From contig NZ_JAPWGY010000016.1 in assembly GCF_027214005.1 (NCBI RefSeq), positions 1-32,400 of the forward strand: 32,400 bases of DNA, read 5' to 3'. Under the pieces are notes generated by a model that did not search any database, was not told the origin of the DNA, and worked only from the letters and a program-made list of their open reading frames with translations. Positions 7,473-26,266 of this stretch are shown here, one piece after another. Made by a program: the position numbers and the translations under genes. Every line of letters begins with the position of its first letter. The first letter of the stretch is position 1. Source of the DNA: Kiloniella laminariae (GTDB lineage: Bacteria > Pseudomonadota > Alphaproteobacteria > Kiloniellales > Kiloniellaceae).

Positions 7473-9896
7473 ATGGAAACTCAGGCAAAAGTCGTGATCA
7501 TCGGCGGTGGTGTAGTCGGGTGCAGCATTTTGTACCATCTGGCCAAGAAAGGCTGGAGTAATGTCGTCTTGTTAGAGCGACAAGAACTGACAGCGGGGTC
7601 TTCCTGGCATGCCGCGGGTAATCTTTTCACACTGACCGCCCCTGGGAATGCAGCCATACTGCAAAAATACACCATTGACCTCTATCCAGAGCTGGAACAG
7701 GAAAGCGGGCAGGATTGTGGCCTTCATTATAATAGTGAGCTTTTGATTGCCAAAGATGAAGAAGAAATCAAGACCCTGAAAATCGCCCATGGCTTTGGCC
7801 TTCGATATGGAATTGAGTCTGAATTTATATCAAATGAACAGGCGAAGGAACTCGCCCCTACTCTCAATACCGATGGCGTAATGGCTGTCTTGCATGAAAA
7901 AACTGCAGGTTATTGTGATCCAGCCAGTGTTACCCATGCTTTTGCCAAAGCTGCGCGACAAAGAGGGGCAAACATTTATCGGCACACCCCTGTCCTCGAG
8001 ACCAATCAGCGCGATGACGGCAAATGGGATGTCGTCACGGAAAAAGGGACGATCATCGCTGACTACGTGGTAAATGCTGCTGGGCTTTGGGGCCGTGAAG
8101 TCGCGGCCTTGGCTGGTATTAAACTGCCTTTGATTCCTGTTGAGCATCATTATCTGGTCACAGAAGATATTCCAGTTTTGGTCGAACACGACCGCCCGCA
8201 TGCGTTATTATCCTATGCAGATGCCAATCTTTATATGCGGCCAGAAGGTAACGGCCTGCTCATTGGTGCTTATGAAAGCAAGTGTCATCACTGGTCTGAA
8301 CATGGCACTCCGCTGAATTTCGGTCATGAGCTACTTCCCGATGACCTCGGTAGAATGGAAGAAGAATTTTGCCAGGCAGTCGATCTCATTCCAAGCCTTG
8401 CTGAGGCTGGAATTAAAAGCGTTATTAACGGCCCAATGATCTTCTCCCCCGACCTTGGCCCCCTTATCGGCCCCTACCCCGGAAAACCGGGTTATTTCTG
8501 TGCCAATGGCGTCATGACCGGCTTTAACCAAGGCGGTGGGATCGGCAAGGTACTCGCAGAATGGATAATTGATGGTGAGCCAAGCCTGGATGTGAGTTTC
8601 TGGGACGTCGCACGTTACGGTGATTACGCAGGCTCACGCTATACAAAAGAGATGACAAAGTACTGGTATGAAAATCGATCAAGTCGAATTTATCCCTACC
8701 AGACTTTCTCTGTCGGACGTCCAATGAAAACATCCGCGATCTATGATCGCCTGAAAGAGGCTGGCGCGGTCTTTGGTGAAACCTGCGGTTGGGAAGATGC
8801 CTACTGGTACGCCACAACCCCTGAAGAAGCGAAAGAAAATTATTGTTACGAACGCCCGAAGTGGTTCGATGCCGTGGGACGTGAAGCACGGGCCACACGC
8901 GAAACAGCCGGACTATTTGAGCTAACAAGTTATGGGAAATACCGTTTTAGTGGGCCAGATGCAGTATCGTTTCTCGACCACCTGATGGCGAATGCAATAC
9001 CAAAAATTGGCAAGACCGCACTTTGTCCTATGTTGAGCCCCCAAGGTAAAGTGATTGGAGATTTTACGATTACACGCCTTGCACAAGACAGCTGCCTAGT
9101 ACTTGGTTCTGGCTCTATGGAGAAAATCCATGAAAGATGGTTCTTGGAAAACCTCCCTGATACGGGTGTTACTTATGAAAATCTGACCCAACGTTATGCC
9201 GGGCTCCATGTTGCAGGTCCAAAAGCGAGAACAATTGTGTCGAAATTGGCTCCTAATGTCAGCTTTGACAACGCAGATTTTCCCTTCTTAAGTGGTCGAG
9301 CCATGGAATTGGGATCTTGTCCCGAGGCCTTTGTTGTTCGGGTGTCTTATACCGGTGAAGCCGGATATGAGATTTATATGCCGATGGAGTATCAACGCGG
9401 TGTATTTGATGAGATTATCAACGCCGGTGAACCTCATGGCCTGCAACTTGTAGGCGGGCACGCCCTGATGTCGTTGCGCCTGGAAAAAGGCTTTGCAGGC
9501 TGGGGACTTGAACTTACCTCTGATTACTATCCACATGAAACAGCCTTAGCGCGTTTTGTCCTATATTCAAAAGAAGATTTTATCGGTCGTGAAGCTGCGT
9601 TAGCAGCAAAAGCTGGCGGCCCACGAGAAGTCTTTGTTCAGTTTGAAATTGAAGTAGATGATGCAGATGCCTATGGTGGTGAACCGATTTATCTTAATGA
9701 CGAACAGGTTGGCTATACCAGTTCCGGAGGCTTTGGATATTGTAGCAACACCAGTTTAGCCTTAGCCTATCTGTCAGCAGAATCTGTTGATGTAAATGCT
9801 GCCTATTACATAGACATCATCGGTGATAAAAGAAAAGCGCGCTTGCTTACCCAAGCACCTGTTGACCCAGAAGGTCACCGTATGCGTATGGGGTAA
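7473..9896 (+). CDS. Dimethylglycine/sarcosine dehydrogenase-like FAD-GcvT protein
   Basis: An 807-residue flavoprotein that would oxidatively demethylate a dimethyl- or monomethylamine and pass the methyl carbon to tetrahydrofolate. The N-terminal Rossmann motif VVIIGGGVVG spans about 7-16. The SSWHAAGN motif has His46, the position used for covalent FAD attachment in dimethylglycine and sarcosine dehydrogenases. The DAO fold runs to about residue 380, then an FAO_M-type linker, a GcvT aminomethyltransferase domain from about 463 (RETAGLFELTSYGKYRFSGPDA) and a GcvT C-terminal barrel (about 690-800). The length matches the family. The ATG start is preceded by CAGGG ten bases upstream. The gene is monocistronic and converges on the MttB-family gene. 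Family is firm; the choice between dimethylglycine, sarcosine or another N-methyl substrate is open. Confidence 0.85.
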   Translation: METQAKVVIIGGGVVGCSILYHLAKKGWSNVVLLERQELTAGSSWHAAGNLFTLTAPGNAAILQKYTIDLYPELEQESGQDCGLHYNSELLIAKDEEEIKTLKIAHGFGLRYGIESEFISNEQAKELAPTLNTDGVMAVLHEKTAGYCDPASVTHAFAKAARQRGANIYRHTPVLETNQRDDGKWDVVTEKGTIIADYVVNAAGLWGREVAALAGIKLPLIPVEHHYLVTEDIPVLVEHDRPHALLSYADANLYMRPEGNGLLIGAYESKCHHWSEHGTPLNFGHELLPDDLGRMEEEFCQAVDLIPSLAEAGIKSVINGPMIFSPDLGPLIGPYPGKPGYFCANGVMTGFNQGGGIGKVLAEWIIDGEPSLDVSFWDVARYGDYAGSRYTKEMTKYWYENRSSRIYPYQTFSVGRPMKTSAIYDRLKEAGAVFGETCGWEDAYWYATTPEEAKENYCYERPKWFDAVGREARATRETAGLFELTSYGKYRFSGPDAVSFLDHLMANAIPKIGKTALCPMLSPQGKVIGDFTITRLAQDSCLVLGSGSMEKIHERWFLENLPDTGVTYENLTQRYAGLHVAGPKARTIVSKLAPNVSFDNADFPFLSGRAMELGSCPEAFVVRVSYTGEAGYEIYMPMEYQRGVFDEIINAGEPHGLQLVGGHALMSLRLEKGFAGWGLELTSDYYPHETALARFVLYSKEDFIGREAALAAKAGGPREVFVQFEIEVDDADAYGGEPIYLNDEQVGYTSSGGFGYCSNTSLALAYLSAESVDVNAAYYIDIIGDKRKARLLTQAPVDPEGHRMRMG

Positions 9897-9999
9897 ATCC
9901 CAACATTTAAGCTCTATTTTTTTACGCCTTTTCTATCTATGCCTTAATACTTTACCTAATTCTTCAAATTTATTACTTTATCTCACTTACATTATCCCA

Positions 10000-10040
10000 A
10001 AAAAAGAAACTGCCCGGCGATTTAACGCCGGACAATTTTT
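10000..10040. terminator. Bidirectional terminator between convergent genes
   Basis: Nine-bp arms 10011-10019 and 10026-10034 (TGCCCGGCG/CGCCGGACA, one C-A mismatch that becomes a G-U wobble on the minus-strand RNA) with loop ATTTAA. T5 follows on the plus strand and an A7 run precedes it, giving a T-run for minus-strand transcripts. It lies between the stops of the two converging genes. Confidence 0.75.
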
Positions 10041-10117
10041 GAGCTTAAACTATTCACAAATACTACGGGTGAGTAACAAATAGAGATCGTTAAGCCTGCT
10101 GTTCTTATATAAATTAT

Positions 10118-11662
10118 TCAAGCTGTTTTACCGTGGATCTCTTGCTTACGGCGTGCCATATAATCTTGCAAAGCTTCATCGATCGCAGGGTCAATTTCAG
10201 GTTGTTCATAATCTGAAAGTAACTTCTTCCAAACTTTATTTGCCCGCTCTGCGGTACCCAGGCTTCCGCGATCGATCCAGTTTTCATAGTTATCCCAGTC
10301 AGAGACCATTGGCGCGTAAAAAGCGTCTTCATAACGGGCAAGTGTATGCGACGTTCCAAAAAAATGCCCACTTGGCCCAACTTCACGAATAGTATCCAGG
10401 GCAATTGCATCGTCATCAAAGGCAAGAGGTTTGTTATAGGCGGACATCATCTGCAACATTTCAGCGTCGATAATTAACTTCTCAAAAGAGGCAACCAACC
10501 CTCCCCCAAGCCAACCAGCACCTTGATTTAGTAAATTGACATGACCTGTCATTGCTCCCCAGATTGACATTTGGCTTTCATAAGCCGCTTGAGCATCGAC
10601 AGCATTAGAGGACGTCACGTTGCTGGAACGGAACGGCACTCCGTAACGCCGTGCGAATTGACCTGAAGCCTGAGCCGCCAATGTATATTCAGGCGTCCCA
10701 AATGCAGGTGATCCCGTTTTCATATCCACGTTCGAAGTAAAACCACCATAAATTACCGGTGTTCCTGGCCGAACACATTGCGCCAGCACGATACCGGATA
10801 ATGCTTCTGCATTTTGTTGGGTTAAAGCACCTGCCAGTGTTATGGGAGACATGGCACCAGCAAGTGTAAACGGTGTAATAATCACCGGTTGGCCGTGAAG
10901 AGCCATCTCAATTAGGCCTTCTGCCATCGGGATATCAATCTGAAGCGGCGAATTTGTATTGATGACCGTTGTGAAGACTGGTTTATCTACCAACTCCTCA
11001 CGCGTGATACCAAGCGCGATACATCCCATCTCAAGCCCATCACGAGCCCGATCTTGACCTAGCCCCCAAGGCTGCCAGTTTTTGTCTGTTAATGTCGCTT
11101 GAGCGTAGTGCAAATCCAGATGGCGGCTTTCCTGTGGCAAATCCATTGCCTCAAATGGACCACCGCCTTCCTGGTGTAAGATATTTAAACTCTGAACCAA
11201 GCGTATGAAATCACACATTTCTGCATAGGTTCCCTGGCGTCGTCCTTTGTCCAGATCGGATACAAAAGCAGGCCCACCTACAGACGCAAATATAGCGTGT
11301 TTGCCACCAACTTTCACATTTCGGGCAGGATTTCTGGCATGTAGAGTAAATTCACTGGGCGGTAATTTTAATTTTTCTTCTACTAAACCACGATCCAGAT
11401 AAACCATTTCAGAAGCATGATCTACTTTTGCACCAGCCTGTTCCAAATAACGCCTTGCTTCAGGTTCATGAACCTTAACCCCGATGTCTTCTAGGATAGT
11501 CAATGAGGCTTCATGGATGGCCTCGATTTGATCTTCACTCAGTACATTTTGTGGCTGATATTGATACTCTATCTGCTTCCAGGGTTGTTGGGTGATCAAA
11601 TTTTTATCTCGAACAGAACGTCCAGTTCTTTGTCCCCGTCTTCGGCTACCCGGTTTCGTCAT
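10118..11662 (-). CDS. MttB-family (trimethylamine methyltransferase superfamily) protein, non-pyrrolysine type
   Basis: 514 residues. Superfamily members move a methyl group from a quaternary or tertiary amine (trimethylamine, glycine betaine, proline betaine, carnitine, gamma-butyrobetaine) to a corrinoid protein. Diagnostic stretches are the basic N-terminus, VLSEDQIEAIHEASLTILEDIGV, VGGPAFVSDLD, TPFTLAGAMSPITLAGAL, PVIYGGFTSNVDMKTG and SSNAVDAQAAYES. There is no in-frame amber codon, so it belongs with the MtgB-like, non-pyrrolysine members. The ATG at 11662 is chosen over the upstream in-frame TTG (11683) because GGGGAG sits just before it. No corrinoid protein or reactivase gene is in the window. 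Two predicted TetR-type operators lie upstream. The substrate is unknown. Confidence 0.85.
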   Translation of the reverse strand: MTKPGSRRRGQRTGRSVRDKNLITQQPWKQIEYQYQPQNVLSEDQIEAIHEASLTILEDIGVKVHEPEARRYLEQAGAKVDHASEMVYLDRGLVEEKLKLPPSEFTLHARNPARNVKVGGKHAIFASVGGPAFVSDLDKGRRQGTYAEMCDFIRLVQSLNILHQEGGGPFEAMDLPQESRHLDLHYAQATLTDKNWQPWGLGQDRARDGLEMGCIALGITREELVDKPVFTTVINTNSPLQIDIPMAEGLIEMALHGQPVIITPFTLAGAMSPITLAGALTQQNAEALSGIVLAQCVRPGTPVIYGGFTSNVDMKTGSPAFGTPEYTLAAQASGQFARRYGVPFRSSNVTSSNAVDAQAAYESQMSIWGAMTGHVNLLNQGAGWLGGGLVASFEKLIIDAEMLQMMSAYNKPLAFDDDAIALDTIREVGPSGHFFGTSHTLARYEDAFYAPMVSDWDNYENWIDRGSLGTAERANKVWKKLLSDYEQPEIDPAIDEALQDYMARRKQEIHGKTA

Positions 11663-11687
11663 TAGACTCTCCCCATAAAGCAATTTT

Positions 11688-11705
11688 ATTGTTCAGTCGT
11701 TCAAT
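11688..11705. promoter_or_regulatory. Predicted operator, distal-degenerate copy, upstream of MttB-family gene
   Basis: ATTGTTCAGTCGTTCAAT fits the 18-bp dyad ATTGTACA-NN-TGTACAAT imperfectly, 26 bp before the methyltransferase start. It is 50 bp, about five helical turns, from the better copy at 11738, which suits cooperative binding. On its own it is too degenerate to call. Confidence 0.45.
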
Positions 11706-11737: not shown

Positions 11738-11755
11738 ATTGTTCAACTGTACAAT
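11738..11755. promoter_or_regulatory. Predicted TetR-type operator upstream of MttB-family gene
   Basis: ATTGTTCAACTGTACAAT matches the perfect palindrome at 25438-25455 at 15 of 18 positions. It lies 76 bp upstream of the minus-strand start and probably overlaps the promoter: on the minus strand a TTGCAA about 18 bp before AACAAT could be the -35/-10 pair. Confidence 0.6.
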
Positions 11756-11844: not shown

Positions 11845-12744
11845 TCAAGATTTCTTAGAATCAGAACTGGATTGAATCAACCAATCCTGAAAACGGTATC
11901 CATAAGGCAAATTCTTACCCCGGGTGGTACAGATCAGTGAAATACAAAATCCCGTAGAGACTAATCCCGATACAGGCGCAATAAGTCTGCCTGCTTTTAA
12001 GTCATCATCTAAGTAAGGGTTCCGTCCCATGGTAATCCCCAGCTTTTCCTTTGCTGCGATGACCGCAGTAGAACTCATATCGAGTTCAAGATACTGAGCC
12101 TGGGAATGGCTTGTTATCCCCTGGGCTTCAAACCATGTTTTCCATTCTTCATCTTCAGACAAACTGGCGATCAGCGTATGACCAAGTAGATCTTCGGCTT
12201 TTTCAATGGCAGGATGATCGTTAAGGTATTCCGGAGTAGCAACAGGAATAATTTCCTCAATAAAAAGAATAGTGTTCTGATCCTCAACAGAATCAAGCGA
12301 TTGATAAACCAAAGCAAAATCAACTTCACGATCCAAGTTACTTCCCACAATGACGGAGGTATTTAATCGCACATTGATGTCTGGATTTCTGGCGTGAAAG
12401 CCCGACAAACGGGGAATTAACCACATATCAGCCAAAGATGGATATAGGTTAATCGTCAGCTGGGATTTACCGCCTGTTTTAGAAATAGTCTCGGTGGCCC
12501 TTTCTATCTCGTCCAAGGCCACGCAAAGTCTATCATAATAAAGTTGTCCCTCTTCACGTAGGATCAACCGATTGTTTCTCCGGATAAACAAAGGCATCGC
12601 GATAAATTCTTCTAACGATTTTACCTGATGGCTAACTGCCGAAGCTGAAATGCCCAATTCATCCGATGCCAACTGGAAATTACAATGGCGGGCTGCAGCT
12701 TCAAAAGCTTTGACCGCCGCAAAGGGAGGAAGCCGTCTTCTCAT
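11845..12744 (-). CDS. LysR-family transcriptional regulator, GcvA-like
   Basis: 299 residues when started at the ATG at 12744 (MRRRLPPFAAVKAFEAAARH), the usual GcvA-type N-terminus; an upstream in-frame start at 12906 would add 54 residues unlike the family. The winged helix-turn-helix is at about residues 10-65 (FQLASDELGISASAVSHQVKSLEEFI), followed by a LysR substrate-binding domain (LTINLYPSLADMWLIPRLSGF). GcvA-like proteins often control one-carbon, glycine or sarcosine genes. It is divergent from soxB with a 366-bp shared gap, so control of the sox operon is the natural guess. Ribosome site is weak (AGG eight bases upstream). Confidence 0.85.
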   Translation of the reverse strand: MRRRLPPFAAVKAFEAAARHCNFQLASDELGISASAVSHQVKSLEEFIAMPLFIRRNNRLILREEGQLYYDRLCVALDEIERATETISKTGGKSQLTINLYPSLADMWLIPRLSGFHARNPDINVRLNTSVIVGSNLDREVDFALVYQSLDSVEDQNTILFIEEIIPVATPEYLNDHPAIEKAEDLLGHTLIASLSEDEEWKTWFEAQGITSHSQAQYLELDMSSTAVIAAKEKLGITMGRNPYLDDDLKAGRLIAPVSGLVSTGFCISLICTTRGKNLPYGYRFQDWLIQSSSDSKKS

Positions 12745-13110
12745 TACGAATTTACCTAATTGAAAACTTACAATCAAAAACCCAAAGGGTCCTTTTAATC
12801 TGCAATCTATATTGTTTTCATACAAACAAAAATTCGGCGCTATAAAAACCAGGTAACTGTAGTCAGTGAATTTATCCTGTGAAAACCGTCTAATCCTTTT
12901 GAGCACAGGTAATTAATAGAGTTGGTTGCCTACTCTAGATATTCCGACAAGGTATTGAAAAGCTATCAAAAAAAAACTTGAACAAAACCTGCCCTATAAA
13001 AAATTTAGCCCACCCGTGAAATTTTTCACCCTGTCTAGAGAATTGCTATCCCCGCATCATCTATTGAATGAAATTAAGAAATACTGTGAACAATTCTGGT
13101 ACCCGATAGT
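12745..13110. promoter_or_regulatory. Divergent control region between the LysR gene and soxB
   Basis: A 366-bp AT-rich gap with no gene. It holds a short dyad GTGAAA-TT-TTTCAC at 13016-13029 and A-rich tracts at about 12969-12976. No copy of the 18-bp TetR-type operator was found here. LysR sites usually lie in such divergent gaps; the exact site was not identified. Confidence 0.45.
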
Positions 13111-14364
13111 ATGAATTATTCCATGACATCACTCATCAAGCAGGCCTTCCAAGGACATAAAGGTTGGCCTGTGGGCTGGCGGGATCCGGAACCTAAGAAA
13201 CAGTATGATGCTATCATTATTGGCGGCGGAGGCCATGGTCTAGCTACCGCATATTATCTGGCAAAAGAGCACGGATTAACGAATATAGCTGTGCTTGAAC
13301 GTGGCTGGATTGGCAGCGGAAACGTTGCACGGAACACGACTATCGTCCGCTCCAATTACCTATTAAACAATGAAATCCCGCTATTGGAGTGGTCACTTAA
13401 GCTCTGGGAGAACCTCTCTCAAGAACTGAATTACAATGTCATGTTTTCCCAACGTGGAGTGTTGGACATATTTCATACTAATGGCCAACGCGATGAGGCC
13501 GTTAGGCGTGGAAATGCCATGATTATGAACGGTGTTGATGCCGTTATGCTGAACAAGGAAGAAGTGCTCAAGCAGGTCAACATCATTGATCCCGACAATG
13601 GCCGCTATCCCATCCTTGGTGGATTGTTGCAACCTCGCGCAGGCACAGCCCGCCATGACGCAGTCGTTTGGGGATATGCACGTGCCGCCGACCGCCTGGG
13701 TGTCGATATTATCCAAGGCTGTGAAGTCACGGGTTTCTTACGCGACAGCGATGGTCGTATGACAGGTGTTGAGACTTCACGCGGCACCATCAACGCACCC
13801 AAAGTCGGTGTTGCTGTTGCGGGCCATAGCAGCCAGGTAATGGAAATGGTGGGAATTCGATTACCCGTTGAGAGCCATAAACTACAAGCCTTTGTTACAG
13901 AAAGTGTAAAGCCAATCATCGATACTGTCGCAACCTTTGGTGTTGGGCACCTCTACATCAGCCAATCTGATAAAGGAGGATTAGTCTTCGGTGGCATGTT
14001 GGATGGTTACAACAGTTTTGCTCAACGCGGCAACCTTCCCATCGTAGAAGATGTTGCAGAAGCCATAATGATGTTTTTGCCCACACTAGGCCGAGCCAGA
14101 TTATTGCGTCACTGGGCTGGCGTTGTTGATATGACCATGGATGGTTCGCCCTTTATCTGTAAGACCCCGATAGATGGGCTCTATCTAAATGGTGGCTGGA
14201 ACTACACAGGATTCAAAGCCATTCCCGGTGCAGCCTGGTGCTTTGCCCACACTATGGTACATAACGAGCCCCACCCCTATAACGCGCCCTTTGATCTGGA
14301 TCGCTTTTCCCAAGGGCGTCCCGTAGACGCTACTGGTGGCGGCCCTTTCCCAAACCATCATTAG
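13111..14364 (+). CDS. soxB: Sarcosine oxidase beta subunit
   Basis: 417 residues, normal for heterotetrameric sarcosine oxidase SoxB, which carries FAD and covalent FMN and oxidises the N-methyl group. Family signatures: GHKGWPVGWRDPEPKKQYD, dinucleotide site IIIGGGGHGLATAYYL (about 36-50), RNTTIVRSNYL, PRAGTARHDAVVWGYARAA with His182 at the position of the covalent FMN histidine, and C-terminal NGGWNYTGFKAIPGAAW. It is the first gene of soxBDAG, with 12 bp to soxD. No clear ribosome site precedes the ATG at 13111; the start is kept because the N-terminus aligns with known SoxB. The amine may be sarcosine or another N-methyl compound. Confidence 0.93.
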   Translation: MNYSMTSLIKQAFQGHKGWPVGWRDPEPKKQYDAIIIGGGGHGLATAYYLAKEHGLTNIAVLERGWIGSGNVARNTTIVRSNYLLNNEIPLLEWSLKLWENLSQELNYNVMFSQRGVLDIFHTNGQRDEAVRRGNAMIMNGVDAVMLNKEEVLKQVNIIDPDNGRYPILGGLLQPRAGTARHDAVVWGYARAADRLGVDIIQGCEVTGFLRDSDGRMTGVETSRGTINAPKVGVAVAGHSSQVMEMVGIRLPVESHKLQAFVTESVKPIIDTVATFGVGHLYISQSDKGGLVFGGMLDGYNSFAQRGNLPIVEDVAEAIMMFLPTLGRARLLRHWAGVVDMTMDGSPFICKTPIDGLYLNGGWNYTGFKAIPGAAWCFAHTMVHNEPHPYNAPFDLDRFSQGRPVDATGGGPFPNHH

Positions 14365-14376
14365 AGGGATCAACAG

Positions 14377-14676
14377 ATGCGTATTCCCTGCCCATTATGT
14401 GGCGAACGCCCACTCGAAGAATTCACTTACCGAGGCGATGCCAAAGTCAAACGCCCCGATCATGATGCACCGATAGAAGATTGGGTCGGCTATGTTTATG
14501 TTCGCGATAACCCAAAGGGAGATCATCAAGAGCATTGGCGGCATTCTGGGGGGTGTGGTAGCTGGCTGACTGTTAACAGAAATACCGTTTCGCATATTAT
14601 AAATAGTGTCGAAGAAGCACGCCAAACTGAAGAGTCTCGAATTTCAGAAAAGACACAAGAAAAGAAACTGGCATGA
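14377..14676 (+). CDS. soxD: Sarcosine oxidase delta subunit
   Basis: 99 residues. The delta subunit is a small structural zinc-binding chain of the heterotetramer. The N-terminal MRIPCPLCGERPLEEFTY gives Cys5 and Cys8, and the HSGGCGSWL motif gives His56 and Cys60, matching the known Cys-Cys-His-Cys zinc site. AGAGGGATC precedes the ATG. Its stop overlaps the soxA start as ATGA (14673-14676), indicating translational coupling. Confidence 0.95.
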   Translation: MRIPCPLCGERPLEEFTYRGDAKVKRPDHDAPIEDWVGYVYVRDNPKGDHQEHWRHSGGCGSWLTVNRNTVSHIINSVEEARQTEESRISEKTQEKKLA

Positions 14677-18345: not shown

Positions 18346-18357
18346 AATCAAAATCTT

Positions 18358-18600: not shown

Positions 18601-19572
18601 ATGAGTACAGGAGCTTACAGGCATATGCTGAACTACGCCTTTAAAAGGGTCATGCTGGGTATCCTCATCCTCTTGTTTACCATGATGGTGATGTATGTCG
18701 CAGTTTACTTGATCCCAGGGGATCCGGCAGCAGTGGCCCTGGGGCCACGCGCCACCCCTGAAATGAAAGCTGATTTACTTGCCCGAATGGGATTGGACCA
18801 ACCGATATATATCCAGTTCTCTAGTTTCATCGTGAATATTCTACATGGCGATTTGGGACTTGATGTTTGGAGCAATCGCGAAGTATCCGCTATCATCTCA
18901 GAAACCATGCCGAACACTATGATTCTGGCGTTTGCCAGTATTGGTTGGGCCTTGGCTCTTGGTATTCCTTTGGGATGCTTTTCAGTTATATATCGCAACT
19001 CTTTTGTGGACCGCATTATTGGCATATTATCGGTCAGCTTTATCGCCATTCCCTCCTTTGTTGTCGCCATTTTTGTACTATTGATTTTTGCGGTCCAACT
19101 CCGTTGGCTTCCTGCCATCGGTGCGGGCGAAGAAGGCGATATTCTTAGCCAAGCGAGAGCCCTCATTTTGCCAGCTTTTGCCATTGGACTTGGTTGGGTT
19201 GGATATCTTGCCCGTATGGTTCGCGCTTCCATGCTCGAAGTGATGGGAGAGCAACATATTAGAACTGCTCGCGCTTTCGGCCTGTCTGAAACCAGGGTCG
19301 TATTTCGATATGCATTGGCCATATCCCTGATACCCGTCATTTCCCTGATCGCCGTAGGTATGGGAGGGATAATTTCGGGGTCTGTCTTTGCCGAAATTAT
19401 CTTCGCCCGTCCCGGTATCGGAAACCTGACTTATAACGCCGTTACTTCAAGAAATTATCCCGTAGTAATGGGCGCTGTAATGGTCACAACCGTCTTTTAT
19501 GTATCAATCACTGTTATGGCAGATCTGTTGATGGCCTACACGGATCCGAGGGTACGCGATGTCCTTAAATAG
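18601..19572 (+). CDS. Peptide/nickel-type ABC transporter permease (DppB/OppB family)
   Basis: Inner-membrane permease, 323 residues from 18601. An in-frame ATG at 18625 gives 315 residues, starts at the family-typical MLNYAFKRVMLGILILL and has AGGAG upstream, whereas 18601 has no ribosome site; 18625 may be the true start. Hydrophobic segments are spread over the whole length. The EAA-type loop reads LARMVRASMLEVMGEQHIRTARAFGL and the C-terminal part contains FARPGIGNLTYNAV. It overlaps the next permease by 14 bp. Substrate cannot be read from the permease; the family carries dipeptides, opines and various amines. Confidence 0.9.
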   Translation: MSTGAYRHMLNYAFKRVMLGILILLFTMMVMYVAVYLIPGDPAAVALGPRATPEMKADLLARMGLDQPIYIQFSSFIVNILHGDLGLDVWSNREVSAIISETMPNTMILAFASIGWALALGIPLGCFSVIYRNSFVDRIIGILSVSFIAIPSFVVAIFVLLIFAVQLRWLPAIGAGEEGDILSQARALILPAFAIGLGWVGYLARMVRASMLEVMGEQHIRTARAFGLSETRVVFRYALAISLIPVISLIAVGMGGIISGSVFAEIIFARPGIGNLTYNAVTSRNYPVVMGAVMVTTVFYVSITVMADLLMAYTDPRVRDVLK

Positions 19573-20482
19573 TACCTCACATGCACGTTCACCCCTGCGC
19601 AACAATCTGCTGGTTAACATTAAGGCCCATCTGGCGAGTATCTGGAACACGGTACTTCAGATATCCCGAGACCCTATTGGGGCTCTTGGGTTATTTCTGG
19701 TGACAACAATCATCTTTATCGCATTTTTTGCTGATTTTTTGATGCCCTATGATCCAAACCAAATCAATGTCCTAAATCGACTAGCAGATCCGACATGGGA
19801 GCACTGGTTAGGTACAGACAATCTTGGCCGAGACAGCTTTTCAAGGGTGTTGATCGGTACCCGGGTTGCCATGCAAGTCGCCATTGTTTCAATTGGCCTC
19901 GCCATGGTTGGCGGAATTGTCTTAGGCCTGATATCTGGCTATGGGCCCAAATGGCTAGATTCCTTATTAGTACTGATTTTTGATTCTATGAGTTCGCTTC
20001 CCATGATCATGTTTGCAATGGCAGTGATCACCGTTCTCGGCCCAGGCACTTACACTCTAATAATTGTAATTGTCAGTGTCTCTATCCCCGGTTATGCACG
20101 GATGATACGCGCTCAGACTCTGTCTTTGAAAAACAGTGAATTTATCTTGGCAGAACGTAGTCTTAACGCCAGTTCTGGACGGATAATTTTCAACCACCTC
20201 TTACCCAATGTTGTTGGCTCTCTTGTTATTTTGGCAAGTATGGATATGCCCGTGGTCATTATGCTCGAAGCAGGCTTGAGCTTTTTAGGGCTCGGCATCA
20301 AACCACCTGATGCCAGTTGGGGTACGATATTGAATGACGGCTACAGCTTTATTCGTGATTCACCTGTTCTTATTATCGCAGGGGGAGGGCCATTGATCCT
20401 GGCGACCCTGGGGTTCACCTTTTTAGGAGAATCTCTGCGCGACGCCCTAGACCCCAAACTTAAAAAACGGGGTTCCAAGTGA
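19559..20482 (+). CDS. Peptide/nickel-type ABC transporter permease (DppC/OppC family)
   Basis: 307 residues. Second inner-membrane permease, with the OppC-type N-terminal segment (DPIGALGLFLVTTIIFIAFF), the LGTDNLGRDSFSRVLIGTR motif typical of DppC, the EAA loop ARMIRAQTLSLKNSEFILAE and LEAGLSFLGLGIKPPDASWG near the end. It starts inside the previous gene, and its TGA shares a base with the ATG of the following ATPase, so the four transporter core genes are translationally coupled. Confidence 0.92.
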   Translation: MSLNSTSHARSPLRNNLLVNIKAHLASIWNTVLQISRDPIGALGLFLVTTIIFIAFFADFLMPYDPNQINVLNRLADPTWEHWLGTDNLGRDSFSRVLIGTRVAMQVAIVSIGLAMVGGIVLGLISGYGPKWLDSLLVLIFDSMSSLPMIMFAMAVITVLGPGTYTLIIVIVSVSIPGYARMIRAQTLSLKNSEFILAERSLNASSGRIIFNHLLPNVVGSLVILASMDMPVVIMLEAGLSFLGLGIKPPDASWGTILNDGYSFIRDSPVLIIAGGGPLILATLGFTFLGESLRDALDPKLKKRGSK

Positions 20483-21453
20483 TGAATAATGCCCTTGAAA
20501 TAAATAACCTTTCAATTCATTACCAGACAGATTCCGGGGAAGTTCGTGCACTGCGAAATGTAAACTTGAAAGTGCCTGACGGGAAAGTCGTTGGTATCGT
20601 TGGTGAAAGCGGATGTGGAAAATCCACGTTAATGTCAGCAATCATCAACCTGTTATCTGAGAATGCTATCGTCAAAAATGGTAAAATTCTGTTCGAAAAT
20701 ACCGATATTTTGACCATGTCTAAGCATCGGTTGCGAAAACTACGTGGCTACGACATCGCCACGGTCTTTCAAGACCCCATGACCACCTTTAATCCAGTCA
20801 TGACCATTGGTCAGCAACTAACCGATTTTCAACATAGATTCAAAGAACGCAATCGTCAGCAAAAACGACAAAAAATCATCGAAATGTTTGAACTTGTTGG
20901 CATTCCCGACCCGGCCCAACGATTGAATCAGTTTCCGCATGAATTTAGCGGCGGCATGCGTCAAAGGATGGCCATTGCAGCAGCCCTGCTTATGAACCCA
21001 AGATTGTTGGTAGCGGATGAGCCCACAACCGCTTTAGATGTCACTATGGAAGCCCAAATATTACATCTTTTGAGGAAGATGAAGAATGATTTCAACGGGT
21101 CAATTCTGATTATCACTCATCATCTAGGTGTGGTCGCTGAACTTTGTGATTATATCACTGTAATGTATGCGGGCGAGGTTGTGGAACAAGGCACCGTCGA
21201 AGATATTTTTTACCGCCCTTCTCATCCCTACACCAAGGCTTTACTTGAGTGTGATCCCGCCGTTCTCAAGAGAAAAACCCGTTACTTGCCAACCATCAAA
21301 GGCAGGATACCAGATCTTAGAACCCCACCTCCCGGCTGTGTCTTCGCAAATCGGTGTTCAAAGGTTAGTGCTCAATGCACGCAAACAGCACCACCGGTCG
21401 TCGATCTGAGTGACGGAAACCACTGGTGTATATGTCACGAGGTAAGTAAATGA
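20482..21453 (+). CDS. Peptide/nickel-type ABC transporter ATP-binding protein (DppD/OppD family)
   Basis: 323 residues from the ATG at 20482, which shares its A with the preceding stop; a GTG three bases earlier is in frame but less likely. Walker A GESGCGKST (41-49), Q-loop VFQDPMTTFNPV, signature FSGGMRQRM, Walker B LLVADEPTTALD and switch His in IITHHLG are all intact. The C-terminal oligopeptide-transporter region has the Cys-rich CVFANRCSKVSAQC. It powers import together with the next gene. Confidence 0.93.
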   Translation: MNNALEINNLSIHYQTDSGEVRALRNVNLKVPDGKVVGIVGESGCGKSTLMSAIINLLSENAIVKNGKILFENTDILTMSKHRLRKLRGYDIATVFQDPMTTFNPVMTIGQQLTDFQHRFKERNRQQKRQKIIEMFELVGIPDPAQRLNQFPHEFSGGMRQRMAIAAALLMNPRLLVADEPTTALDVTMEAQILHLLRKMKNDFNGSILIITHHLGVVAELCDYITVMYAGEVVEQGTVEDIFYRPSHPYTKALLECDPAVLKRKTRYLPTIKGRIPDLRTPPPGCVFANRCSKVSAQCTQTAPPVVDLSDGNHWCICHEVSK

Positions 21454-22439
21454 CCGCCTTTCTAGAAGTCAGAAATCTGGATGTCAGTTTTGTTCTGCCC
21501 CGTAGTATCTCTTCAATACTCTTACGTAATAAAGCCCCCGGACTTGATGTCCTACAAAATGTATCTCTTACCCTCGGCAAAGGGGAAACTCTGGGTTTGG
21601 TCGGAGAAAGTGGATCTGGAAAAACGACCCTTGCTCGGACCATCACAGGTCTGATCCCACCACAATCCGGAACTATTAGCTTGGGTGGCCGAGTAGTATC
21701 GGGCAATAAAGATAAAGCTTTCCATTGGTTGCGTCGGGAAATCTCGATGATGTTTCAAGATCCCATTGCTAGCCTCAGCCCAAGAATGCGGATCGGGTCT
21801 CTAATAACGGAACCTTTTATCATCAATGACATTTCTATTGGCAATCGATGGGAAAAGGCCGAAGAGCTCTTGGATATGGTAGGGTTACCCACCGAATTTG
21901 CCAACCGTTATCCCCATGAATTAAGTGGTGGACAAGCCAGGCGTGTTGGCGTGGCTCGTGCTCTGGCCCTGCTGCCAAAGATCGTGATCGCGGATGAGCC
22001 TACCGCGGGCCTTGATGTGTCTGTCCAAGGTGAAATTCTCAACCTAATGACAAGACTTCAAGAGGAGCTTGACCTTAGTTATATCATCGTCACACATAAT
22101 CTGGCTGTCGTAAGGCATACCACTACTCAGTTGGCGATTATGTACCTTGGTCAAATCGTTGAGCAAGGTCCAACCGACGATATATTTGAACGGCCATCTC
22201 ACCCCTATACCAAGGCTCTTTTAGATTCAGAGCCGCACCCCGATCCGGCGAAGCGACGCGATGATTTACAGATAAAGGGAGAAATCCCGAGCCTGTTTTT
22301 ACGACCAACGGGGTGCGATTTCCATACCCGCTGTTCATTTGCACAAGACAAATGTCGCGCTGTGGAGCCCGACTTCATGACAACAGAAGATGGCCGTCTT
22401 TTGCGTTGTCACTTCCCATTGCAAGACACGGATGGATGA
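21450..22439 (+). CDS. Peptide/nickel-type ABC transporter ATP-binding protein (DppF/OppF family)
   Basis: 329 residues, overlapping the previous ATPase by ATGA. Walker A GESGSGKTT, Q-loop MFQDPIASLSPRMRIG, signature LSGGQARRVGVARAL, Walker B IVIADEPTAGLD and switch His in IIVTHNLAVV are intact. The C-terminal CDFHTRCSFAQDKCRAVEP is typical of the OppF type. An insertion between the first strands (PRSISSILLRNKAPGLDVLQ) is usual for this branch. A 97-bp gap without recognisable features separates it from the binding-protein gene. Confidence 0.93.
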   Translation: MTAFLEVRNLDVSFVLPRSISSILLRNKAPGLDVLQNVSLTLGKGETLGLVGESGSGKTTLARTITGLIPPQSGTISLGGRVVSGNKDKAFHWLRREISMMFQDPIASLSPRMRIGSLITEPFIINDISIGNRWEKAEELLDMVGLPTEFANRYPHELSGGQARRVGVARALALLPKIVIADEPTAGLDVSVQGEILNLMTRLQEELDLSYIIVTHNLAVVRHTTTQLAIMYLGQIVEQGPTDDIFERPSHPYTKALLDSEPHPDPAKRRDDLQIKGEIPSLFLRPTGCDFHTRCSFAQDKCRAVEPDFMTTEDGRLLRCHFPLQDTDG

Positions 22440-22536
22440 CTAATGAGAACGTAACTTTACAACGAGCAAGTCCGGACAAGAGTAATGAAAGATCCCGTCC
22501 AACAAATAAAGAATCATAAACAGAAGGGTTATCGTC

Positions 22537-24096
22537 ATGAGTAAACTGGAGACCACAAGACGTACATTCATTCAAGGCGCAGGCATACTTGCTGGTCTTA
22601 CTGCCCTACCAGGTGTCACCTGGTCTGCGACCAAGGATGTTCTTAAAATTCGTGTAGAAAAAGACATCGCCGTTTTAGATCCAGCCTACGAAACAGGTAT
22701 GTTAGAAGAAGCTGTAATCCGTTCCATTTTCGTATCTCTTATTGAATTAGAAGATATACGTTCTGGCAGTAACTGGAAACTGGCCGCAGCGGAATCAATG
22801 GACCAAATTGATGCAAAAACTATACGTTTTAAGCTACGTGAAGGACTTAATTGGACGGGTGAATATGGGCCAGTAACAGCCGAAGACGTGAAATATTCCT
22901 TTGAGCGTGTTGCAGACCCTGAACTGAAATCTCCATGGGCTTATCAATTTGAAAAGCTAGACCATGTGGAAGTGATCGACGAACGCACAGGTATCATTCA
23001 TCTGAAAGAACCTTTTGCTCCCCTATGGCTGATGTCCCTGCCTTGGTATGGTGGTCATATCGTCTGTAAAGCAGCCGTTGAAAAAGCCGGTGGTAAATTC
23101 AATGTGGAAACGCCTGCCACCTGTGGACCTTTCGTCGTTGAAAAATGGCAACCCAAGGAAAAGCTAATCCTGGTCGCCAATCCCGATTGGACAGGACCAA
23201 AACCTGACTTCAACAAAATTGAATTTATTATTGTTGAAGACAACGAATCAGCCCTGTTAGCTTATGAAGCAGGTGCTTTCGATTTCAGTAAAATTAGCAT
23301 TAGTGCTGTTCCTCGGATCCAAAAAAATCCCCCTGCTGACACGACTCTATTGATGGCGCAATCGTCTCGCTATGTCTGGATTTCTCTTAACCTTGATCAT
23401 CCCAAACTTAAAGATGAAAGGGTTCGTCAAGCTCTCCAACATGCTTTCGATGGCGACTCTGTTCTTGCTGGTGCCTATAACAATCTTGTCGAACGCTCCG
23501 CCGGGGTCGTACAGCCGGGAACTAAATCATCCAGAGCAGAAAATAAAATCAATAAAGTAGATTACGACAAGGCCCGTAGTCTTCTGGATGAAGCTGGTGC
23601 CAGCGATCTAATGGTTAAGCTTTCCGTGTTGAATACCACTACGGATATGGCAATTGCGCAAATCGTTCAGGCCACGATGACACAGGCTGGTATTACCGTT
23701 GAGATCGAGCCATATGACGAAGGAGTTTATTGGACTCTGGGTGATCAGGCCAGTGGTGATGGCTGGAAAGAACAGGAAATGATCCTCATGGCCTTCAATG
23801 GTGGGTTGGATCCTGCTGAAAACCTCACATGGTTCAGACCTGAACAAATTGGAGTCTGGAACTGGTCACGCTATAACAGCCCAGAATTTGAATCCCTTTA
23901 TCAGCAGGGATTGGTGGAAACTGATGTAGAAAAGCGCGCCACTATTTATCATAAGATGGAAATGATGATGGAAGAGTCCGGTGGCTTCATTTTTATTACC
24001 CATGAACCTCTTGTGGCAGTCCATCGCTCTAATATCGCCCCAGTTATCCTTGCTGATAATCAGTTAGTGCCTGCAGCAACTAAACTGTTTACTTAA
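22537..24096 (+). CDS. Extracellular solute-binding protein family 5, Tat-exported
   Basis: 519 residues; the periplasmic receptor that gives the importer its specificity. The N-terminus TTRRTFIQGAG with Arg8-Arg9 and a following hydrophobic stretch is a twin-arginine signal, cleaved near TWSATK. Family 5 landmarks: LKIRVEKDIAVLDPAYETG, FKLREGLNWTGEYGPVTAEDVKYSFERV, PATCGPFVVEKWQP, DERVRQALQHAFD and IAQIVQATMTQAGITVEIEPYD. GAAGGG precedes the ATG. It is the last gene of the transporter operon, whereas family binding proteins more often come first, and it ends at a strong terminator. The ligand cannot be inferred from sequence alone; a methylated amine or peptide is suggested by context. Confidence 0.9.
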   Translation: MSKLETTRRTFIQGAGILAGLTALPGVTWSATKDVLKIRVEKDIAVLDPAYETGMLEEAVIRSIFVSLIELEDIRSGSNWKLAAAESMDQIDAKTIRFKLREGLNWTGEYGPVTAEDVKYSFERVADPELKSPWAYQFEKLDHVEVIDERTGIIHLKEPFAPLWLMSLPWYGGHIVCKAAVEKAGGKFNVETPATCGPFVVEKWQPKEKLILVANPDWTGPKPDFNKIEFIIVEDNESALLAYEAGAFDFSKISISAVPRIQKNPPADTTLLMAQSSRYVWISLNLDHPKLKDERVRQALQHAFDGDSVLAGAYNNLVERSAGVVQPGTKSSRAENKINKVDYDKARSLLDEAGASDLMVKLSVLNTTTDMAIAQIVQATMTQAGITVEIEPYDEGVYWTLGDQASGDGWKEQEMILMAFNGGLDPAENLTWFRPEQIGVWNWSRYNSPEFESLYQQGLVETDVEKRATIYHKMEMMMEESGGFIFITHEPLVAVHRSNIAPVILADNQLVPAATKLFT

Positions 24097-24269: not shown

Positions 24270-25388
24270 TTATCCTTTGCGCAGGACTCTCAGTTTGCTC
24301 AGGAAATCTTCTTTATTTAAGTAGGCCCCGCACAAACGACGATGGCCCTGGTAGGCATCACGGGCATGCATAACACGCCAGTTATCGAACAAGACCACCG
24401 TGCCCGGTCGCAATCCAAATCGCAGCTGGAAACAACGATCGTTGATCAATTCATTAAACAGGCGTAATCCTCGATAAAAATCGTCCTGCTGGTCATCTTC
24501 CAGCCGGAACGGCGCCCGGTCGTAATTGTTGTATGCAATCTGCTGTAAAGTTCCGTCACGACCCAAACCTATAATAGGATGTTCTGCACGAAGATGAACT
24601 CCATCGCCCAAATACTGTGCCGGGACAGGAACAGAGGTCAGGGTATCGAAAGCCTTTGGATCTCGGGTGCGGATTTCTTCAGCTACTCGAAAACCATCCA
24701 CAAAGATGCTCTCTCCTCCTGTGCCATCGAATTCAAGACAATGAAACATCTGATAACCTGGCGAATCAACGCTGTAAGTTCCATCTGTGTGGGGACCGAT
24801 TTCTACGGTACTATAAGCTGAATCAGCAAAGGCCTGGTTCGCCGTAAAGTCCCAAAAACCACCAAAAATAGTTTCCCGGATGTAGGTAATCCGTCGGGCT
24901 AAAGCTTCTGTTGCTTCTGGTGTGGCTGGAGTATTATCGACGATGGCAAAACCATAATAGTCGATCAATTCAACCCAACTTTTAAGCCCCTCGTCTCCTG
25001 CCATGACATCATCATAGGATACCGTTGGCAAGTGACCAGCGATTTCATCTGCGGTCCATAAACTGCTAGGATGATCAGACTTCGCCAATCCGGTTGTCGC
25101 CATCTCTCGCAAGAATGAAGCAGGATAAATACTTTTCTGTTCTTCTTTCTCCCACCGAATAGAAACCGTGCTTCCATCTTCACTCAATTTCGCCTCTACG
25201 GCTTTCAAATCAACAGGAAGCGAAAAAGTATCTACCTGACGTTGATTTGTCTCCTGATTCATACTGTGCAGAGCGTGACAGTGATCCCGGAGCCAGAAGT
25301 ATGGGTAACGGGATGGTTTCACATCATCCTTCCATTGAATTTCCAAATAGTTGTCGGTTGTTCTTACTGTATCCATTTGAAATGTCAT
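24270..25388 (-). CDS. TMLH/BBOX-type 2-oxoglutarate and Fe(II)-dependent dioxygenase
   Basis: 372 residues. Enzymes of this family hydroxylate trimethylammonium substrates (N6-trimethyllysine or gamma-butyrobetaine) on the way to carnitine. The N-terminal domain has YFWLRDHCHALHS (about 31-42). The catalytic jelly roll has the Fe(II) triad His200, Asp202 (GPHTDGTY) and His341 (FDNWRVMHARDAY), with Arg350/351 placed for 2-oxoglutarate. FHCLEFDGTGGESIFVDGF, IAYNNYDRAP and GHRRLCGAYLNKEDFLSKLR resemble eukaryotic trimethyllysine dioxygenase as I recall it more than butyrobetaine dioxygenase. The N-terminal zinc ligands look incomplete: Cys37 is present, but the CxC pattern of BBOX is not. It is divergent from the TetR gene with a perfect operator palindrome 50 bp upstream. 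The exact substrate is open. Confidence 0.85.
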   Translation of the reverse strand: MTFQMDTVRTTDNYLEIQWKDDVKPSRYPYFWLRDHCHALHSMNQETNQRQVDTFSLPVDLKAVEAKLSEDGSTVSIRWEKEEQKSIYPASFLREMATTGLAKSDHPSSLWTADEIAGHLPTVSYDDVMAGDEGLKSWVELIDYYGFAIVDNTPATPEATEALARRITYIRETIFGGFWDFTANQAFADSAYSTVEIGPHTDGTYSVDSPGYQMFHCLEFDGTGGESIFVDGFRVAEEIRTRDPKAFDTLTSVPVPAQYLGDGVHLRAEHPIIGLGRDGTLQQIAYNNYDRAPFRLEDDQQDDFYRGLRLFNELINDRCFQLRFGLRPGTVVLFDNWRVMHARDAYQGHRRLCGAYLNKEDFLSKLRVLRKG

Positions 25389-25437: not shown

Positions 25438-25443
25438 ATTGTA
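25438..25443 (-). promoter_or_regulatory. Candidate -10 of the dioxygenase gene inside the operator
   Basis: On the minus strand TACAAT lies at 25443-25438, with TTGACT (25464-25459) 15 bp upstream as -35. The spacing is short, and a shifted -10 is possible. If right, a bound repressor would cover the promoter. Confidence 0.35.
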
Positions 25444-25455
25444 CATATGTACAAT
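25438..25455. promoter_or_regulatory. Perfect 18-bp palindromic operator between dioxygenase and TetR genes
   Basis: ATTGTACATATGTACAAT is a perfect palindrome in the 260-bp divergent gap. Related sites at 11738, 11688, 18445 and 25549 define the pattern ATTGTACA-NN-TGTACAAT. Symmetry and length fit a TetR dimer site, and the adjacent TetR/BetI-like gene is the obvious candidate to bind it. Confidence 0.7.
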
Positions 25456-25548
25456 AAGAGTCAATTACAATTTCTTACTTTGCTAATATAAATTTATTTC
25501 AGTGATTTCGAAATTGGCTGACGCAAGGTATTGCAGAAGTAACAGGCT

Positions 25549-25566
25549 GTTGTACAATAGTCCAAT
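25549..25566. promoter_or_regulatory. Second predicted operator upstream of the TetR gene
   Basis: GTTGTACAATAGTCCAAT matches the 25438-25455 palindrome at 13 of 18 positions, with an intact left half (TTGTACA) and degenerate right half. It lies 83 bp upstream of the chosen TTG start, consistent with autoregulation. Confidence 0.45.
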
Positions 25567-25648
25567 ACACAGCATCTATGTGAAACTTCATATTTATATA
25601 ACTAATATTTATAGAAATATATCTGGTATCCAAATAAAGGAAAAAACC

Positions 25649-26266
25649 TTGGCAAATGGCAAAAGACAACGGCTGGATCCTGATGACCGAAAACAACTAT
25701 TGCTTCAATCTGCACGAGATTCTCTGGCCCGTTATGGAGCCCAAGGAACGGGCGTACGAGAAATCTGTAAAGAAATAGGTGTATCCCCCGGGCTCCTCAC
25801 CCATTATTTCAATGGCAAGGACTCTTTGTTTATCGAAGCCTATATCGACATGGCTCAAAGCTATAACGCAGAGATTTTAAAAATAACCGAAAACCCCAAT
25901 TTTTCTGCCGAACAGCGGATGAAAAATTTATTTGACCTCTATTTTTCATCCGACTGGGTCGATGAAGCCACCACAGGCACCTATATCGGTTTCTGGAGCC
26001 TGTCACGAACCATTCCAGAATTGCGGGATGCTTTCAACAAAACCTTCAAAATCCAGCATCATGCCATAGAAACCCTGGTTTCAGATCTGGTGGAGGAACG
26101 TCAGGTAGATATTGACCCCAAACCCTTTGCTGCCTTCCTGCTGGTTTGCCTCGAGGGCACCTGGTTCCAGCTCTGCTTTAACCCGGAAGTTGTCGAAAAA
26201 GAAAGCATCCAAGCCCTCTGCTGGGATTGGCTCGAGATCTATCTCCTGCATAAATCCAAGAGTTAG
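25649..26266 (+). CDS. TetR-family regulator, BetI-like
   Basis: 205 residues from a TTG at 25649, preceded by AAAGGA. A GTG at 25502 would add 49 residues of unfamilial, Tyr/Ile-rich sequence and would place the operator at 25549 inside the gene, so it is disfavoured. The N-terminal helix-turn-helix is at about 15-60 (VREICKEIGVSPGLLTHYFNGKDSLF), and the C-terminal ligand domain contains TGTYIGFWSLSRTIPELRDAF, like the choline-sensing BetI group. BetI-type proteins repress in the absence of a quaternary amine ligand. The neighbouring dioxygenase, and operators at the methyltransferase and transporter genes, suggest it controls the regulon. The actual ligand is unknown. Confidence 0.85.
   Translation: MANGKRQRLDPDDRKQLLLQSARDSLARYGAQGTGVREICKEIGVSPGLLTHYFNGKDSLFIEAYIDMAQSYNAEILKITENPNFSAEQRMKNLFDLYFSSDWVDEATTGTYIGFWSLSRTIPELRDAFNKTFKIQHHAIETLVSDLVEERQVDIDPKPFAAFLLVCLEGTWFQLCFNPEVVEKESIQALCWDWLEIYLLHKSKS

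Follow-up and report, generated by a model that had tools for sequence, protein, structure and literature searches.

The window analyzed here, a stretch of 32,400 bases that is the entire contig C7, encodes a dioxygenase that by sequence is of the TMLH type, accompanied by a TetR regulator, a peptide-type importer and a set of demethylation-type genes. We regard as close to an even call the reading that TetR here controls a regulon for the catabolism of a trimethylated cationic amino acid. The most likely substrate would be N-epsilon-trimethyllysine, either free or bound in peptides, a compound released on the breakdown of methylated proteins (PMC7764450). A search of open-licence PMC papers gave no bacterial trimethyllysine catabolic operon among the matches listed. 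Open reading frames and profile searches located every gene named in an earlier sequence-only reading of this DNA, whose gene list lacks a GcvA-like LysR regulator (11845–12906, minus strand). The strand switches imply at least three transcription units. A TpsA-like frame stays open up to the end of its contig.

The dioxygenase and its clade

The dioxygenase (372 aa, 24270–25388, minus strand) exceeds the cut-off of a single profile model, TIGR02410 for TMLH (321.7 versus 268.3). It retains the iron triad (His200, Asp202 and His341) and the 2OG arginine (Arg350), and its aromatic cage, placed on what we take to be the BBOX cage positions, Tyr177 included, consists of Phe175, Trp179, Tyr192 and Tyr356, with Phe175 replacing Tyr177 of BBOX. 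Asp189 aligns without a gap with Asp231 of human TMLH, the role of which is described in PMC7764450, and with Asn191 of BBOX. A 44-row alignment has Asp at this position in all 31 clade rows and Asn in all 13 others, the latter being 11 paralog rows (10 genes out of a longer list), BBOX and TmpA. Identity as BBOX is ruled out by a score below the cut-off of TIGR02409 (284 versus 415) and by Asp in place of Asn191; TmpA, the best PDB match at 170 bits, is ruled out likewise by the model NF049936 (258 versus a cut-off of 400) and by Asp in place of Asn. Of the earlier label 'TMLH/BBOX-type', the TMLH half stands, on the model score and the Asp231 equivalent, and the BBOX half falls. Hydroxylation of trimethyllysine at C3 is the putative activity.

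Members of the clade occur in genomes of the same class as the window and also in MAGs that carry the labels Actinomycetota and Gammaproteobacteria; one member tested falls under the TMLH cut-off (247 versus 268). Within the nine genomes of the genus, the sole other member, 88% identical, is in the sister genome G008. The genome under study carries its own TmpA-like gene at C22:680280, which scores 565 against a cut-off of 400.

The TetR regulator and operator-like palindromes

The TetR gene (25502–26266, plus strand; PF13977, PF00440) diverges from the dioxygenase gene and probably starts near 25649, as judged from an AAGGA stretch and the onset of the TetR_N domain. Its product has a BetI-type C-terminal domain, which bears out that part of the earlier description 'BetI-like'; its identity as BetI is ruled out by scores under the cut-offs of both BetI models (64.7 versus 201.3 for TIGR03384 and 66.8 versus 118 for NF001978).

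Five operator-like sites, all intergenic, are the window's top five under an external matrix built from 11 sites at the TMLH loci of 10 other genomes; no window site is included, and the external sites were picked by likeness to a motif first spotted in the window. The perfect palindrome ATTGTACATATGTACAAT (25438–25455), between the TMLH gene and the divergent TetR gene, ranks first (24.65), followed by the palindrome ATTGTTCAACTGTACAAT upstream of MttB (11738–11755; rank 2, 18.82), ACTATACACCTGTACAAT between soxG and dppB (18445–18462; rank 3, 13.48), a further palindrome upstream of MttB, ATTGTTCAGTCGTTCAAT (11688–11705; rank 4, 13.19), and GTTGTACAATAGTCCAAT (25549–25566; rank 5, 12.06), probably in the TetR leader. 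The TMLH/TetR gap and the MttB upstream region thus hold two sites each, and dppB one. The best two are strong and the remaining three weak, none of these three scoring above a site elsewhere in the same genome (13.70), which is the best other one examined and was chosen for matching the pattern.

Within the window, five matches at up to two mismatches compare with 0.90 expected, and 0 of 100 shuffles give five. Leaving out the TMLH/TetR gap, three sites fall in 1484 intergenic bp, against a shuffle mean of 0.056, and 0 of 5000 shuffles reach three. At one mismatch or fewer, the motif lies upstream of TMLH in 10/10 other loci with a TetR neighbor and at 0/13 other TMLH loci without one. Enrichment is absent genome-wide (nine sites at one mismatch or fewer versus eight for the reversed pattern) and, for the joint form of the motif, across the genus (strict sites in nine genomes, 12 versus 20), and none of nine loci holding relatives of the window MttB has a match at up to two mismatches. 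Locus L098 shows a weak palindrome upstream of TetR and a weak matrix match in the TetR–MttB gap, neither of which was counted. The nearest TetR in the tree adjoins a 67% identical MttB in G130 (support 99/99, with a long-branch warning).

The sites support a predicted common regulon for part of the gene set, namely the TMLH/TetR pair, MttB and the dpp importer. The single regulon proposed from sequence alone is supported to that extent, with one palindrome type upstream of these genes; the support does not extend to DMGDH or soxB, where the matrix scan of the window finds no operator-like site and where the LysR gene is divergent to soxB.

Demethylation genes, importers and competing readings

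The MttB gene (521-aa open frame, 10118–11683, minus strand) probably starts at an ATG near 11662 and encodes a non-pyrrolysine member of the MttB superfamily (PF06253, 647.8 bits) with no in-frame amber codon and a score of 318.7 against the cut-off of 525 of the Pyl-MttB model TIGR02369. It is one of four paralogs in the genome, which elsewhere encodes the corrinoid protein partner that MttB needs, as a stand-alone gene adjoining DUF1638. Its matches in the PDB include 4yyc (367 bits) and the glycine betaine methyltransferase 9yce, whose 363 bits do not settle glycine betaine as the substrate. At lower coordinates lies the gene of an 807-aa DMGDH-like enzyme of putative substrate (7473–9896, plus strand) with FAD-dependent DAO and folate-type GcvT domains (PF01266, 230 bits; PF01571, 217 bits) and 553 bits to human DMGDH 5l46. 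The LysR regulator (256 bits versus a cut-off of 288) is encoded divergently from the genes of a heterotetrameric sarcosine oxidase, which lie on the plus strand: soxB (13111–14364; TIGR01373, 643.9 versus 529.45), soxD (14377–14676; PF04267, 106.2 versus 27), soxA (14673–17678; TIGR01372, 1258.5 versus 1164) and a divergent soxG (17665–18345) that scores weakly, under its cut-off (TIGR01375, 56.8 versus 143.95).

The importer comprises dppBCDF-like permeases and ATPases (18601–22439, plus strand; 18601–19572, 19559–20482, 20479–21453 and 21450–22439) and a family-5 binding protein (SBP_bac_5, 22537–24096, plus strand; PF00496, 229 bits). The N-terminus of the latter looks twin-arginine-like by eye. 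Binding-protein relatives co-occur with TMLH-type genomes in 6/14 versus 18/129 cases (p = 0.014), a value that ignores kinship and was not used.

Conservation of the full gene set was looked for in the neighborhoods of TMLH (in 23 further genomes and at 8 named loci, of which one is the same contig as G008), MttB (19 regions) and the binding protein (13 regions), and none of them showed it. Because many regions stop at contig ends, the absence counts are limits.

The locus may be an accidental neighborhood, a reading that we consider rather unlikely: demethylation genes of the betaine type (MttB, DMGDH, sox, LysR) and an importer of the peptide type, with a dioxygenase/TetR pair of no relation to them that came to lie alongside. 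No other fetched neighborhood brings the full gene set together, and in the congeners G001, G004 and G007 a single contig bears MttB, DMGDH, soxBDA and an importer of the dpp type, with no TMLH match in the 40 kb examined per genome; MttB, DMGDH and sox thus recur as a group in congeners. The window and G008 cease to be homologous ~34 bp upstream of the dioxygenase start, and a stretch of 20 kb around the G008 TMLH, of which just 978 bp lie upstream, showed neither TetR, importer nor MttB. Relatives of the importer adjoin a gene of the S15 (X-Pro dipeptidyl-peptidase) family in 7/13 loci and an HTH gene in 6/13, neighbors that suggest peptide-like substrates through the S15 gene and leave a role as methylamine importers unsupported. 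The operator-like sites of MttB and dppB argue against mere adjacency, since they fit the motif present at TMLH/TetR loci in other genomes, as does the recurrence in G047 and G053, both of one genus, of a TMLH gene directly adjoining a family-5 binding protein gene (21% identical protein) with MttB ~6 kb off. Less probable is a plain glycine betaine pathway, in which MttB, DMGDH and sox lead to glycine and the dioxygenase merely feeds in carnitine-type compounds. DMGDH, sox and MttB do make up the known aerobic MtgB route (PMC12478193), and the G007 island adds a BCCT transporter and an aldehyde dehydrogenase; against this, a BCCT gene is absent among the scanned window genes, and the window MttB is 48–50% identical to the congeners' copies versus 62–67% to those in G130, G046, G010, G012 and G021, some of which adjoin TMADH-like or Rieske enzymes.

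Least probable of these alternatives, and in our view improbable, is that the clade uses arginine-like or other guanidino amino acids, with the cage holding guanidinium. At other TMLH-type loci, a polar-amino-acid importer of the SBP_bac_3 type with its permease lies 83–2185 bp from the dioxygenase gene in 14/23 cases, against 0/37 control loci (3/37 of which gave weak, 24–31%, matches to an aminotransferase query). This pairing speaks for an amino acid substrate and counts for the trimethyllysine reading as well. This partner matches Lys/Arg/Orn-, arginine-, nopaline- and glutamine-binding proteins; it scores below the Lys/Arg/Orn model (131 versus a cut-off of 256), so that 'cationic' is itself a predicted property of the substrate. 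The genome's own SBP_bac_3 locus points to arginine, because it includes a 5-guanidino-2-oxopentanoate decarboxylase (760 versus 500) beside a PLP aminotransferase (GntC-like, 307, below 415). Also against the trimethyllysine reading, that locus occurs at 81% identity or more in 6/9 genomes of the genus, four of them without a TMLH-type gene. In favor of an amino acid substrate in that reading, TMLH in G008 carries the same operator type as the SBP_bac_3 locus there, and in G031 the motif precedes TMLH (no mismatches) and recurs between the SBP_bac_3 and aminotransferase genes (two mismatches). An agmatinase-family gene (TIGR01230, 190.6 versus 174.3) stands ~4 kb from the dioxygenase in G053, and G047 has a copy of it at 88% identity. 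A guanidino substrate sits poorly with a dioxygenase that passes the trimethyllysine dioxygenase model and retains most of a BBOX-type cage, and with an MttB-family enzyme as its putative co-regulated partner. These readings overlap, and their probabilities need not add to one.

Proposed pathway and relation to known systems

In the trimethyllysine reading, the TetR repressor would bind ATTGTAC-N4-GTACAAT-type palindromes at the computed sites that precede the TetR and dioxygenase genes, mttB and dppBCDF with its binding protein, and a trimethylated ligand would free it from these operators. The importer would take up the trimethylated compound, which the dioxygenase would hydroxylate like animal TMLH; the cage would enclose N(CH3)3+, and Asp189 would engage the alpha-ammonium group. 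PLP-dependent and aldehyde dehydrogenase steps, encoded elsewhere (a profile scan of the window genes finds neither an aldolase nor an aldehyde dehydrogenase gene), would lead to a betaine such as gamma-butyrobetaine. MttB would hand one methyl group to the genome's corrinoid protein, and the DMGDH-like enzyme and SoxBDAG, whose genes lack a TetR operator and probably answer to the GcvA-like LysR, would move the next two to folate. Stepwise demethylation of one substrate is thus predicted from enzyme families. Taken as a whole, the sequence-only reading has support for its dioxygenase type, a partly shared regulon, the MttB–DMGDH–sox grouping seen in congeners and the corrinoid partner of MttB, and none for the all-gene regulon or for full recurrence.

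More doubtfully, aerobic bacteria may possess a dedicated TetR-regulated trimethyllysine pathway, in which the Asp231-type clade frequently has an amino acid importer as its partner and here has come, through shared operators, to be wired to a corrinoid-dependent MttB and a peptide-type importer, protein-derived trimethyllysine being demethylated for C1 units and nitrogen. A bacterial TMLH-type clade with its own operator would be a candidate first step in bacterial trimethyllysine use. It would also offer a substrate class for one among the many MttB paralogs that lack an assigned substrate, as discussed in PMC12478193. The operator motif may serve as a regulon marker for scanning further genomes.

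The window dioxygenase resembles eukaryotic TMLH (TMLHE) in passing TIGR02410 and in sharing the His-Asp-His triad, the 2OG arginine, most of the cage and the Asp; it differs in being bacterial, with a putative activity, and in having operator-like sites in common with MttB and an importer. In animals, TMLH carries out the opening step of carnitine synthesis. BBOX has Tyr177 where the window enzyme has Phe, and TmpA shares the fold family but has Asn, not Asp, at the diagnostic position. The regulator is like BetI in combining TetR_N with a BetI-type C-terminal domain, and unlike it in both model scores. The Ruegeria pomeroyi MtgB–MtgC–MtgD system (PMC12478193) similarly uses a non-Pyl MttB, a corrinoid protein by DUF1638, and DMGDH and sox for later steps, whereas the window MttB has TetR-type sites upstream and a TMLH-type gene nearby. 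Also named in PMC12478193, the anaerobic Eubacterium enzymes MtyB and MtcB, acting on gamma-butyrobetaine and carnitine, offer a parallel as MttB-like demethylases of longer betaines.

Gene content and identity of the dioxygenase

The window spans contig C7 entirely (assembly, 4.38 Mb), and the genes named in the sequence-only reading were confirmed one by one. A gene for a DMGDH-like (dimethylglycine dehydrogenase-like) enzyme (7473–9896) is followed by MttB (10118–11683, minus strand), a GcvA-like LysR regulator (11845–12906, minus strand), soxBDAG (13111–18345), dppBCDF with a family-5 binding protein (18601–24096), a dioxygenase of the trimethyllysine hydroxylase (TMLH)/gamma-butyrobetaine dioxygenase (BBOX) type (24270–25388, minus strand), and a TetR gene (25502–26266). 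This set is flanked on one side by an RTX-type giant protein of 2052 aa (46–6204), which carries HemolysinCabind repeats and weakly matches CopC, and a small frame without Pfam match (6389–7099). On the other side, a TpsB (ShlB/FhaC) transporter (26988–28706) and the 1229-aa frame that follows it, open to the contig end, cover 26988–32398 at a GC content of 53–56% and probably form a two-partner secretion locus. Between soxG and dppB (18357–18398), an AT-rich perfect inverted repeat with 12-nt arms (TATCAAAATATA) lies separate from the TetR-like site.

Among the models for TMLH, BBOX, and TmpA (2-trimethylaminoethylphosphonate hydroxylase), the window dioxygenase passes solely that for trimethyllysine dioxygenase (321.7 versus a cut-off of 268.3). 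Identities as BBOX (284, below the cut-off of 415) and TmpA (258, below 400) were rejected. D189 aligns, with no gap nearby, with Asn191 of human BBOX. A review (PMC7764450) gives Asp231 as the TMLH residue at this position and describes it as the presumed contact of the alpha-ammonium group. In a 44-row alignment, this residue is Asp in 31/31 rows from the enzyme's own clade (37–100% identity) and Asn in all 13 others, which are BBOX, TmpA, and 10 paralogous genes represented by 11 rows. Assigned by alignment, the clade is present in 24 of 143 searched genomes, our own included, and at seven further named MAG loci labeled actinobacterial (six) or gammaproteobacterial (one). Because one tested clade member scores 247 with the TMLH model, below the cut-off of 268, the clade is TMLH-like, short of proven TMLH. 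The genome encodes two more members of the dioxygenase family (positions 9233–10384 of locus L050, from contig C22, and 9004–10164 of locus L049, from contig C11), one passing the TmpA and BBOX models and the other none of the three, with SP replacing the NN motif.

Operator-like sites

The gap between the dioxygenase and TetR genes holds a perfect 18-bp palindrome, ATTGTACATATGTACAAT. With up to two mismatches, TTGTAC-N4-GTACAA occurs five times in the window (25438, 25549, 11688, 11738, and 18445) versus 0.90 expected, a count reached in 0 of 100 shuffles; two sites lie in the TMLH/TetR gap, two before MttB, and one before dppB. Excluding that gap leaves three sites in 1484 intergenic bases (shuffle mean 0.056; three reached in 0/5000). 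A scoring matrix built from 11 sites at the TMLH loci of 10 other genomes, including no window site, ranked the same five sites highest (24.65, 18.82, 13.48, 13.19, and 12.06), all intergenic, followed by a genic site at 10.64. The first two are strong; since the best score in 171.7 kb of other own-genome sequence was 13.70, in a stretch fetched for its pattern match, the other three fall within the genome background by score alone. The operator-like sites connect TMLH with MttB and, less strongly, with the importer. The regulon proposed by the sequence-only reading for 7473–26266 is thus partly supported, by features outside that reading's view. No such site precedes DMGDH or soxB, and DMGDH and sox are probably under another regulator.

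Beyond the window, TTRTAC-N4-GTAYAA with at most one mismatch was found upstream of other TMLH genes at 10 of 23 loci, exactly the 10 that have a TetR neighbor; locus L058 has a one-mismatch match, but 9 kb away. Genome-wide, the own genome contains nine sites with at most one mismatch versus eight for the reversed control, but three of the nine are on the window contig, which is 0.74% of the genome. The strict joint form TTGWAC-N4-GTWCAA gave two own-genome sites (control, one), at 25439 and in an SBP_bac_3/TetR locus, and 12 versus 20 in the control across nine genomes of the genus.

Neighborhoods of TMLH-type genes and the likely substrate

The full gene combination turned up in none of the fetched neighborhoods. 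An SBP_bac_3 protein and a permease lie 83–2185 bp from the dioxygenase gene in 14 of 23 other-genome loci (72–90% identity to the L076 copy, one of the 14), in 0/37 control loci (five around Asn-type paralogs, 19 around MttB, and 13 around the family-5 protein), and in 0/7 further named MAG loci. Its matches are polar amino acid binding proteins, and its score with the Lys/Arg/Orn model is 131, below the cut-off of 256. An aldehyde dehydrogenase gene adjoins the dioxygenase in four actinobacterial MAG loci (one by Pfam; 4/4 by tblastn, 87–100%). In genomes G047 and G053, of a single genus, a family-5 binding protein gene adjoins the dioxygenase, a DAO-family oxidase is present, and MttB lies ~6 kb off. 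The sister genome G008 carries an 88% identical dioxygenase gene with different neighbors. A histamine/trimethylamine dehydrogenase-like flavoprotein is close to the TMLH-type gene in eight genomes of two genera (L046–L048, L070, L071, L074, L076, and L077).

Six of the nine genus genomes, our own among them, carry an SBP_bac_3 gene (at least 81% identity) together with a TetR gene and a pair of TTGAAC-N4-GTTCAA sites (at most one mismatch); four of these six lack a TMLH-type gene. The own-genome copy of this importer/TetR locus (positions 8359–13990 of L172, from contig C22), with its TTGAAC-N4-GTTCAA palindromes, also encodes a PLP aminotransferase together with a 5-guanidino-2-oxopentanoate decarboxylase. 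The same operator type is found upstream of TMLH in G008, TTGAACGAGTGTTCAG, which connects the dioxygenase with the breakdown of amino acids.

The most probable reading of the window locus is that a repressor controls a system acting on a trimethylated cationic amino acid, for which trimethyllysine would be the first candidate. The SBP_bac_3/TetR locus speaks as well for an arginine-like substrate of the dioxygenase. Less probable rivals are a chance neighborhood, such an arginine-like substrate, and a plain glycine betaine pathway. The families, residues, operator-like sites, and co-occurrence are observed, whereas the ligand, the reaction, and the order in which methyl groups are removed are inferred, as are an aldolase step and an aldehyde step, for which no genes were seen within the window.

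The MttB, DMGDH, and sox module

On the MttB/DMGDH/sox side (DEMETHYLASES), MttB genes number four in the own genome, which also encodes a stand-alone corrinoid protein beside DUF1638, a pair described for Ruegeria (PMC12478193). A dpp-type importer, MttB, DMGDH, and soxBDA share one contig in three congeners, with no TMLH match in those regions. The closest relatives of the window MttB (62–67%, some partial) are genes in G130, G046, G010, G012, and G021. In G046 and G010 the neighbor of such a gene is a trimethylamine/histamine dehydrogenase-type flavoprotein; in G130 the gene adjoins a TetR and a Rieske oxygenase. The window TetR groups in a tree with this G130 TetR (99/99, with a long-branch warning); at nine loci of window-MttB relatives, no motif was seen with up to two mismatches.

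Two additional DMGDH and MttB pairs are found in the own genome (L051 and L053; contigs C2 and C22). Near MttB genes, a fatty-acid-desaturase-family gene is present in 11 of 24 regions and an HTH regulator in 8 of 24, some regions overlapping (L098–L116, L147–L149). Relatives of the window importer (L119–L129) often have as neighbors a gene of the S15 (X-Pro dipeptidyl-peptidase) family and an HTH regulator.

No bacterial operon of the TMLH/MttB/importer kind was found among the open-licence papers listed by the literature searches. From the congener contigs and the pair described for Ruegeria, MttB, DMGDH, and sox together are a recurring module of an already described kind.
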